Translations under genes and position numbers: made by a program | Notes under the pieces: generated by a model | Database searches by the model: none | Seen by the model: the letters and a program-made list of their open reading frames with translations, nothing else | What the model was told of the DNA's origin: nothing | Shown: positions 59,441-61,880 of the stretch, piece after piece | Layout: every line of letters begins with the position of its first letter | Numbering within the stretch: position 1 is the stretch's first letter | From: Oasisia sp. SBJ-2009 | Taxonomy: Eukaryota; Annelida; Polychaeta; Sabellida; Siboglinidae | Assembly: GCA_964017155.1 (NCBI GenBank) | Contig: OZ024865.1 | Span: 37,775,426-37,839,425 of the forward strand | Length of the DNA stretch: 64,000 nucleotides | Reading direction: 5' to 3'

Positions 59441-61880
59441 TGCTGCTGCTGCTGCTGCTGCTGCTGCTGCTGCTGCTGCTGCTGCTGCTGCTGCTGCTGC
59501 TGCTGCTGCTGCTGCTGCTGCTGCTGCTGCTGCTGCTGCTGCTGCTGCTGCTGCTGCTGCTGCTGCTGCTGCTGCTGCTGCTGCTGCTGCTGCTGCTGCT
59601 GCTGCTGCTGCTGCTGCTGCTGCTGCTGCTGCTGCTGCTGCTGCTGCTGCTGCTGCTGCTGCTGCTGCTGCTGCTGCTGCTGCTGCTGCTGCTGCTGCTG
59701 CTGCTGCTGCTGCTGCTGCTGCTGCTGCTGCTGCTGCTGCTGCTGCTGCTGCTGCTGCTGCTGCTGCTGCTGCTGCTGCTGCTGCTGCTGCTGCTGCTGC
59801 TGCTGCTGCTGCTGCTGCTGCTGCTGCTGCTGCTGCTGCTGCTGCTGCTGCTGCTGCTGCTGCTGCTGCTGCTGCTGCTGCTGCTGCTGCTGCTGCTGCT
59901 GCTGCTGCTGCTGCTGCTGCTGCTGCTGCTGCTGCTGCTGCTGCTGCTGCTGCTGCTGCTGCTGCTGCTGCTGCTGCTGCTGCTGCTGCTGCTGCTGCTG
60001 CTGCTGCTGCTGCTGCTGCTGCTGCTGCTGCTGCTGCTGCTGCTGCTGCTGCTGCTGCTGCTGCTGCTGCTGCTGCTGCTGCTGCTGCTGCTGCTGCTGC
60101 TGCTGCTGCTGCTGCTGCTGCTGCTGCTGCTGCTGCTGCTGCTGCTGCTGCTGCTGCTGCTGCTGCTGCTGCTGCTGCTGCTGCTGCTGCTGCTGCTGCT
60201 GCTGCTGCTGCTGCTGCTGCTGCTGCTGCTGCTGCTGCTGCTGCTGCTGCTGCTGCTGCTGCTGCTGCTGCTGCTGCTGCTGCTGCTGCTGCTGCTGCTG
60301 CTGCTGCTGCTGCTGCTGCTGCTGCTGCTGCTGCTGCTGCTGCTGCTGCTGCTGCTGCTGCTGCTGCTGCTGCTGCTGCTGCTGCTGCTGCTGCTGCTGC
60401 TGCTGCTGCTGCTGCTGCTGCTGCTGCTGCTGCTGCTGCTGCTGCTGCTGCTGCTGCTGCTGCTGCTGCTGCTGCTGCTGCTGCTGCTGCTGCTGCTGCT
60501 GCTGCTGCTGCTGCTGCTGCTGCTGCTGCTGCTGCTGCTGCTGCTGCTGCTGCTGCTGCTGCTGCTGCTGCTGCTGCTGCTGCTGCTGCTGCTGCTGCTG
60601 CTGCTGCTGCTGCTGCTGCTGCTGCTGCTGCTGCTGCTGCTGCTGCTGCTGCTGCTGCTGCTGCTGCTGCTGCTGCTGCTGCTGCTGCTGCTGCTGCTGC
60701 TGCTGCTGCTGCTGCTGCTGCTGCTGCTGCTGCTGCTGCTGCTGCTGCTGCTGCTGCTGCTGCTGCTGCTGCTGCTGCTGCTGCTGCTGCTGCTGCTGCT
60801 GCTGCTGCTGCTGCTGCTGCTGCTGCTGCTGCTGCTGCTGCTGCTGCTGCTGCTGCTGCTGCTGCTGCTGCTGCTGCTGCTGCTGCTGCTGCTGCTGCTG
60901 CTGCTGCTGCTGCTGCTGCTGCTGCTGCTGCTGCTGCTGCTGCTGCTGCTGCTGCTGCTGCTGCTGCTGCTGCTGCTGCTGCTGCTGCTGCTGCTGCTGC
61001 TGCTGCTGCTGCTGCTGCTGCTGCTGCTGCTGCTGCTGCTGCTGCTGCTGCTGCTGCTGCTGCTGCTGCTGCTGCTGCTGCTGCTGCTGCTGCTGCTGCT
61101 GCTGCTGCTGCTGCTGCTGCTGCTGCTGCTGCTGCTGCTGCTGCTGCTGCTGCTGCTGCTGCTGCTGCTGCTGCTGCTGCTGCTGCTGCTGCTGCTGCTG
61201 CTGCTGCTGCTGCTGCTGCTGCTGCTGCTGCTGCTGCTGCTGCTGCTGCTGCTGCTGCTGCTGCTGCTGCTGCTGCTGCTGCTGCTGCTGCTGCTGCTGC
61301 TGCTGCTGCTGCTGCTGCTGCTGCTGCTGCTGCTGCTGCTGCTGCTGCTGCTGCTGCTGCTGCTGCTGCTGCTGCTGCTGCTGCTGCTGCTGCTGCTGCT
61401 GCTGCTGCTGCTGCTGCTGCTGCTGCTGCTGCTGCTGCTGCTGCTGCTGCTGCTGCTGCTGCTGCTGCTGCTGCTGCTGCTGCTGCTGCTGCTGCTGCTG
61501 CTGCTGCTGCTGCTGCTGCTGCTGCTGCTGCTGCTGCTGCTGCTGCTGCTGCTGCTGCTGCTGCTGCTGCTGCTGCTGCTGCTGCTGCTGCTGCTGCTGC
61601 TGCTGCTGCTGCTGCTGCTGCTGCTGCTGCTGCTGCTGCTGCTGCTGCTGCTGCTGCTGCTGCTGCTGCTGCTGCTGCTGCTGCTGCTGCTGCTGCTGCT
61701 GCTGCTGCTGCTGCTGCTGCTGCTGCTGCTGCTGCTGCTGCTGCTGCTGCTGCTGCTGCTGCTGCTGCTGCTGCTGCTGCTGCTGCTGCTGCTGCTGCTG
61801 CTGCTGCTGCTGCTGCTGCTGCTGCTGCTGCTGCTGCTGCTGCTGCTGCTGCTGCTGCTGCTGCTGCTGCTGCTGCTGCT
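59441..61880. repeat. (CTG)n/(CAG)n tract of about 813 units
   Basis: 2,440 bp of TGC units in which I find no interruption, between ACCTTTCCCA and a T run. Open frames of poly-Ala and poly-Leu (plus) and poly-Ser (minus) span it but start and stop in the flanks without any other protein sequence, so none is called a gene. CAG/CTG DNA of this length forms hairpins and is highly unstable in other animals. Confidence 0.98.

Follow-up and report, generated by a model that had tools for sequence, protein, structure and literature searches.

A 2440-nt uninterrupted CTG tract in a consensus sequence of Oasisia sp., probably a recent microsatellite expansion outside recognisable coding sequence

The consensus sequence of Oasisia sp. 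contained a pure CTG (TGC) microsatellite of 2440 nt at positions 59441–61880 on the plus strand (CAG on the minus strand) of the window, which is the whole analysed stretch of 64,000 nt. A scripted comparison across the window showed that the tract was identical to a perfect (TGC)n string. It is composed of 813 whole TGC units (59441–61879) and one T, or alternatively of 812 whole CTG units (59443–61878) with partial units at both ends. TRF described it with a period of 3, 813.3 copies, 100% matches, 0% indels and a score of 4880. Substitutions, indels and N were all sought against the perfect string and none was present in the consensus; the window itself was without any N. With a head-to-tail unit of 3 nt, the tract falls within the 1–6 nt that define a microsatellite, and its 812 whole CTG units form an uninterrupted run far above the about 45–50 units taken to mark a large CAG/CTG expansion. 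The sequence-only reading had given the same coordinates and about 813 uninterrupted copies, and both were correct. The tract is likely to represent a very large and recent expansion of a CAG/CTG microsatellite in an animal genome, at a site outside recognisable coding sequence.

The tract is set apart from the other repeats of the window by its size and purity combined. The second-longest pure microsatellite in a scripted search for units of 2–6 nt was (TG)34, which at 68 nt is approximately 36 times shorter, and the view that the tract is far beyond ordinary microsatellites holds against the others in the window. In the other trinucleotide classes, pure runs reached at most 18 nt. Only two further CTG/CAG runs of at least 3 copies were found, each of exactly 3 copies, and there was no second long CTG/CAG tract within the window. 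The size of the tract alone excludes chance. Minisatellites are numerous in the window, where TRF gave 45 rows with some overlap between them, and the long ones are imperfect. These include a 29-nt array at 46810–48365 (1556 nt, 53.7 copies, 92% matches), a 62-nt array at 26336–27118 (12.7 copies, 89% matches), a 52-nt array (8.3 copies, 96% matches) and a 27-nt array at 54881–55180 (11.1 copies, 98% matches). The 29-nt array leaves long open frames on both strands. Perfect minisatellites were short, such as one of 16 nt × 5.1 (81 nt). The purity and the figure of 813 are weaker evidence than they appear, as a single consensus can mask interruptions and length mosaicism. The figure is the length of one consensus, and the locus is probably mosaic.

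Both edges of the tract are abrupt. The left flank (58441–59440, 32.5% G+C) ends in ...CCTTTCCCA, so that CCCA is directly followed by TGC and the base preceding the tract is A. The right flank (61881–62880, 40.3% G+C, 35% over the first 500 nt) begins after TGCT with TTTTTTT and then ATC, the T run reaching position 61887. The G+C content of the nearest 200, 500 and 1000 nt was 32–35% on the left and 35–40% on the right; within the nearest 200 and 500 nt of both sides it was 32–36%, which bears out the earlier description of the flanks as AT-rich. CTG plus CAG trimers are clearly scarce in the left flank, at 1.0–1.6 per 100 nt compared with 3.4 for the remainder of the window. In the right flank their density was 3.0, 2.0 and 3.3 per 100 nt over the first 100, 300 and 1000 nt, values close to or lower than the window mean (3.4). 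By these densities there is no shoulder of degenerate CTG repeats on either side, and the AT-rich composition of the flanks itself lowers the expected density and contributes to the low values.

The description of the surroundings as unique DNA stood as far as the comparison within the window reaches, in which the nearest 1.4 kb on the left and 1.3 kb on the right had no second copy. The nearest repeated DNA in that comparison was located at 57901–57995 on the left (88% to 34809–34902) and, on the right, in an array of TGCG type from about 63252. TRF also reported a small imperfect array at 61993–62065 on the plus strand, 112 nt past the tract, with periods of 12, 15 and 24 nt, each divisible by three. 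The left flank (57001–59440) had no match in the plasmid collection.

No gene was recognised in or beside the tract. A six-frame Pfam search of 55201–59440 and 61881–64000 at E 0.01 found no family in any of the 12 translations, Rfam at its gathering score found no family in the window, and a tRNA scan with the bacterial code found none. The statement that there is no evident gene holds as far as these searches reach, and introns and UTRs, and with them a transcribed gene like that of DM1, would escape such scans. A scan for bacterial promoters and terminators over 58441–62880 gave 10 promoter-like sites, all in the flanks, against a shuffle mean of 1.3, and 3 terminator-like sites against 2.5 in the shuffles. 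Both results were dismissed because shuffling mixes the composition of the tract into the whole region and because the host is an animal.

Elsewhere in the window, several mobile-element remains were annotated. Minus-strand frames at 9214–11882 resemble tyrosine recombinase, RNase H and reverse transcriptase, some with Pfam scores below the curated cut-off. The tyrosine recombinase-like frame is located at 9214–10263 and the RNase H/RT-like frame at 10110–11882 (both by Pfam), and a further minus-strand frame at 11635–12690 had no Pfam match. A GDSL/SGNH-like hydrolase frame (14104–14685) lies inside the same element region, 7582–14964. Direct repeats of approximately 260 nt occur at 7582–7841, 8282–8540 and 14706–14964, the first two being 96.5% and 99.2% identical to the last. 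The split direct repeats and the hydrolase recall Ngaro-type DIRS elements, to which this region may be related. One piece of a hAT transposase was found at 37125–37580. Protein searches with the tyrosine recombinase frame and with a domain-less frame at 16174–17340 listed 165 matches (45 of 45 and the best 120 of 449). Among those listed, 17 carried an organism name: 16 were from bivalves (Mya, Mytilus, Saccostrea, Magallana, Argopecten, Mercenaria and Pecten) and one was from a sea urchin.

An inverted repeat occupies 50518–54438, with two opposed arms of approximately 1.9 kb that are separated by about 100 nt and have an overall identity of about 88%. Examples of paired stretches are 52236–52477 with 52581–52822 (94%) and 52114–52251 with 52806–52943 (95%), and AT microsatellites are present in each arm. 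Near the right end of the window, an ORF at 63633–63839 had a sole protein match, P0166, a protein of 58 residues that is 100% identical over 48% of the query. A frame in 63633–63925 contains MGRPRMFATESARKQG..., which is 100% identical to P0166 across 33 residues. By eye, the second half of P0166 resembles the window sequence past a short stretch that P0166 lacks. Judging from these alignments, another record contains a second version of 63.7–63.9 kb, as a close copy, an allele, or a mobile or repeat segment.

Three other explanations of the tract were weighed. It would be hardly credible as coding sequence, encoding poly-alanine behind an N-terminus that looks like a signal peptide (ATG at 59376) or poly-leucine (ATG at 59440). 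Two plus-strand frames do have an in-frame ATG ahead of the tract, and the frame from 59376 reads MKTVLVRALVSTTHVLILNLSH and then alanine. However, all six frames are open across the tract, so openness is uninformative on coding, and an A ahead of TGC yields ATG automatically. The plus-strand ORF at 59376–61895 has 22 codons from its ATG, then poly-alanine, FFYQ and a stop; the one at 59440–61947 (plus strand) starts with ATG at the edge of the tract and continues with poly-leucine and about 21 more codons. The parts outside the tract are 22 and 1 codons upstream and 4 and about 21 downstream, and the flank translations (55201–59440 and 61881–64000) contain no Pfam domain. The two frames were rejected as mechanical ORFs and are not regarded as genes. 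We consider it very unlikely that the tract began as a simple-repeat tail, belonging to a retroelement or other mobile element, and grew after insertion. On the minus strand, A8 is followed by (GCA)n, as might suit such a tail, and element remains are present elsewhere in the window, but no target-site duplication was found in 5 kb on the left and 2.1 kb on the right. The left 40 nt and the right flank had words of up to 8 nt in common, and the right 40 nt and the left 5 kb had words of up to 10 nt. Neither length is above chance by a control of 300 random 40-mers of the window against the right flank (mean 8.06, maximum 14), a control that covers the right flank only. Neither Pfam nor the comparison limited to the window revealed an element body beside the tract: six-frame Pfam of both flanks was empty, and the adjoining 1.4 kb and 1.3 kb had no second copy, although both would miss an element that Pfam lacks and that occurs once in the window. 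The tail was rejected because neither a target-site duplication nor an element was found at the edges in these searches.

It is also conceivable, though in our judgement unlikely, that the animal's own tract is interrupted or far shorter than the consensus, which assembly or polishing would have cleaned or inflated. The evidence consists of one consensus, and pure repeats align ambiguously. Against this, the tract is continuous with non-repeat sequence to its left and right, with no N in between. Assemblers generally shorten or break such tracts more often than they lengthen them, which also speaks against inflation. The arms of the inverted repeat at 50518–54438 are diverged (about 88%), which does not resemble a recently formed amplification chimera. 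That an array of diverged 29-mers as long as 1.5 kb is resolved in the window suggests that the source assembly was built from long reads and could span 2.4 kb. In DM1 amplicons, PacBio sequencing has measured more than 1000 pure CTG units (PMC7962047), and a CCTG expansion of about 50 kb has been covered in nanopore data (PMC9462847).

We therefore return to a large and recent expansion of a CAG/CTG microsatellite as the favoured explanation. It is supported by the contrast between the imperfect long arrays elsewhere in the window and the perfect CTG tract, and by the absence of a CTG shoulder. The proposed steps are inferred from studies of other organisms. A seed that was short and uninterrupted would cross the instability threshold, beyond which the hairpins and slip-outs of CTG/CAG repeats receive expansion-biased processing, which would involve mismatch repair with MutS-beta and MutL-gamma. 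A small number of steps could then add many units, by the repair of nicks or gaps or by break-induced replication, the latter named for CAG/CTG repeats in a title cited in PMC12493176. Large steps that copy repeat only would explain why interruptions are absent. Selection is presumed to be weak because the tract lies outside coding sequence, and tract length in the animal would be expected to vary from cell to cell and from one individual to another. We propose no function for the tract. For the CUG strand, folding prediction gave a single long hairpin containing U-U mismatches (−145.1 kcal/mol for 300 nt); all 200 shuffles folded identically, so the hairpin energy is a value without a control.

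Published work agrees with parts of this scheme. Hairpins and slip-outs are held to be expansion substrates of mismatch repair in PMC12559329 and PMC12721328, and nick and gap repair has been proposed to drive large expansions in PMC12493176. The absence of interruptions is what would be expected of a tract grown in few, large and recent steps, and it also makes a tract liable to grow. On a TCF4 allele of 18 repeats, a single interruption cut the expansion rate 135-fold, and long TCF4 alleles can differ by hundreds of units inside one person's blood, as stated in PMC12935551. Contrary observations are also on record. Among expanded CAG loci in UK Biobank, 15 of 18 are in transcribed regions according to the same source (PMC12935551), which makes a tract with no recognised gene less likely in advance, unless the searches here overlooked a transcript. 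The window also has no second long CTG/CAG tract. In an experiment described in PMC12493176, gap filling on a CTG template led to large contractions and on a CAG template to small expansions only. Natural long arrays often bear variants, and PMC9462847 gives 7 of 9 DM2 alleles with additional TCTG blocks.

The absence of substitutions gives a rough limit on age. At an assumed 3e-9 per site per generation, the chance of at least one substitution in 2440 nt reaches 95% after about 410,000 generations, and for assumed rates of 1e-9 to 3e-8 the same point moves from approximately 1.2 million down to 41,000 generations. This substitution-based figure is a rough upper bound only, as cycles of contraction and expansion would keep the tract pure too. 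The argument of the sequence-only reading that purity speaks for recent growth fits these figures; the purity to which it appeals is that of one consensus, and a pure consensus can be a product of polishing. The interpretation given in that reading is supported in part; tolerance by the genome, a dynamic tract and active homogenisation are conjectures in it. A further reading, which we regard as doubtful, is that the germ line of a wild invertebrate holds a CTG/CAG allele of DM size, apparently harmless and kept pure by repeated large expansions and contractions.

By comparison with known long triplet repeats, neither the size nor the motif of the tract is new. DM1 alleles carry 50–4000 CTG copies (PMC9349176), and PMC7962047 likewise describes alleles of up to 4000 CTG with more than 1000 pure units read by PacBio. 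The consensus tract lies inside the range of expanded DMPK alleles, which upholds the earlier comparison with human disease expansions. The DMPK repeat of myotonic dystrophy type 1 (DM1) is alike in unit and order of size, but it is located in the 3′ UTR of an expressed human gene, causes disease and has a measured instability, whereas the Oasisia tract belongs to another animal and has no recognised gene. The IIL1 locus of Arabidopsis thaliana Bur-0 is another natural, non-human and large trinucleotide expansion, with more than 200 GAA/TTC units that persist in wild populations (PMC5006647). It differs in its unit, its intronic position, its conditional growth defect and its established unexpanded range of 0–36, as given in that source (PMC5006647). 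In barley, 7655 nanopore reads contained trinucleotide arrays of more than 20 kb, the longest being an AAG array of 153 kb (PMC9241371). These are likewise very long trinucleotide microsatellites resolved by long reads, but AAC, AAG, ACT and ATC are the abundant units, AAG is pericentromeric and there are many arrays per genome, according to PMC9241371, whereas one CTG tract was found here in 64 kb. No kilobase CTG/CAG array in a mollusc was found in the open-access literature searched by title and start of abstract, a scope outside which most subscription papers lie. An invertebrate array that combines a CTG unit with full purity and kilobase length, and that has no recognised gene, was likewise not met in the open-access literature so searched, which is weak evidence.

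A scan for (CTG)41 gave one match of 45 copies in 84,980 prokaryote species genomes and one match of 45 copies in viral contigs. The scan shows only rarity in prokaryotes; its collections are without animal genomes and are no gauge of rarity in animals. The matches are located at 4957–5091 of L001, from Leclercia adecarboxylata (LR590464.1), and at 7889–8023 of the viral contig L002, each with exactly 45 pure CTG units that read as CAG (glutamine) in one minus-strand frame. The left 60 nt of the two runs are identical and the right sides are different, L002 ending 45 nt after its run. The flanks of L001 matched 16 of 50,697 phage records at 60–80% identity, and some of these matches adjoin coat or head-tail genes.

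Whichever way the reads decide, the kind of sequence is already known. If they fail to confirm the tract, the case would be a warning against citing repeat lengths from a single consensus. If they confirm it, the tract would be a natural, kilobase-sized and fully pure CTG/CAG array in an animal far from mammals. It may then serve as a system in which to study the causes and limits of such expansion and whether cells tolerate it. Should the reading of a tolerated germ-line allele be true, a comparison of the mismatch-repair and nick-repair genes of this animal with those of human would show how such an allele is tolerated.
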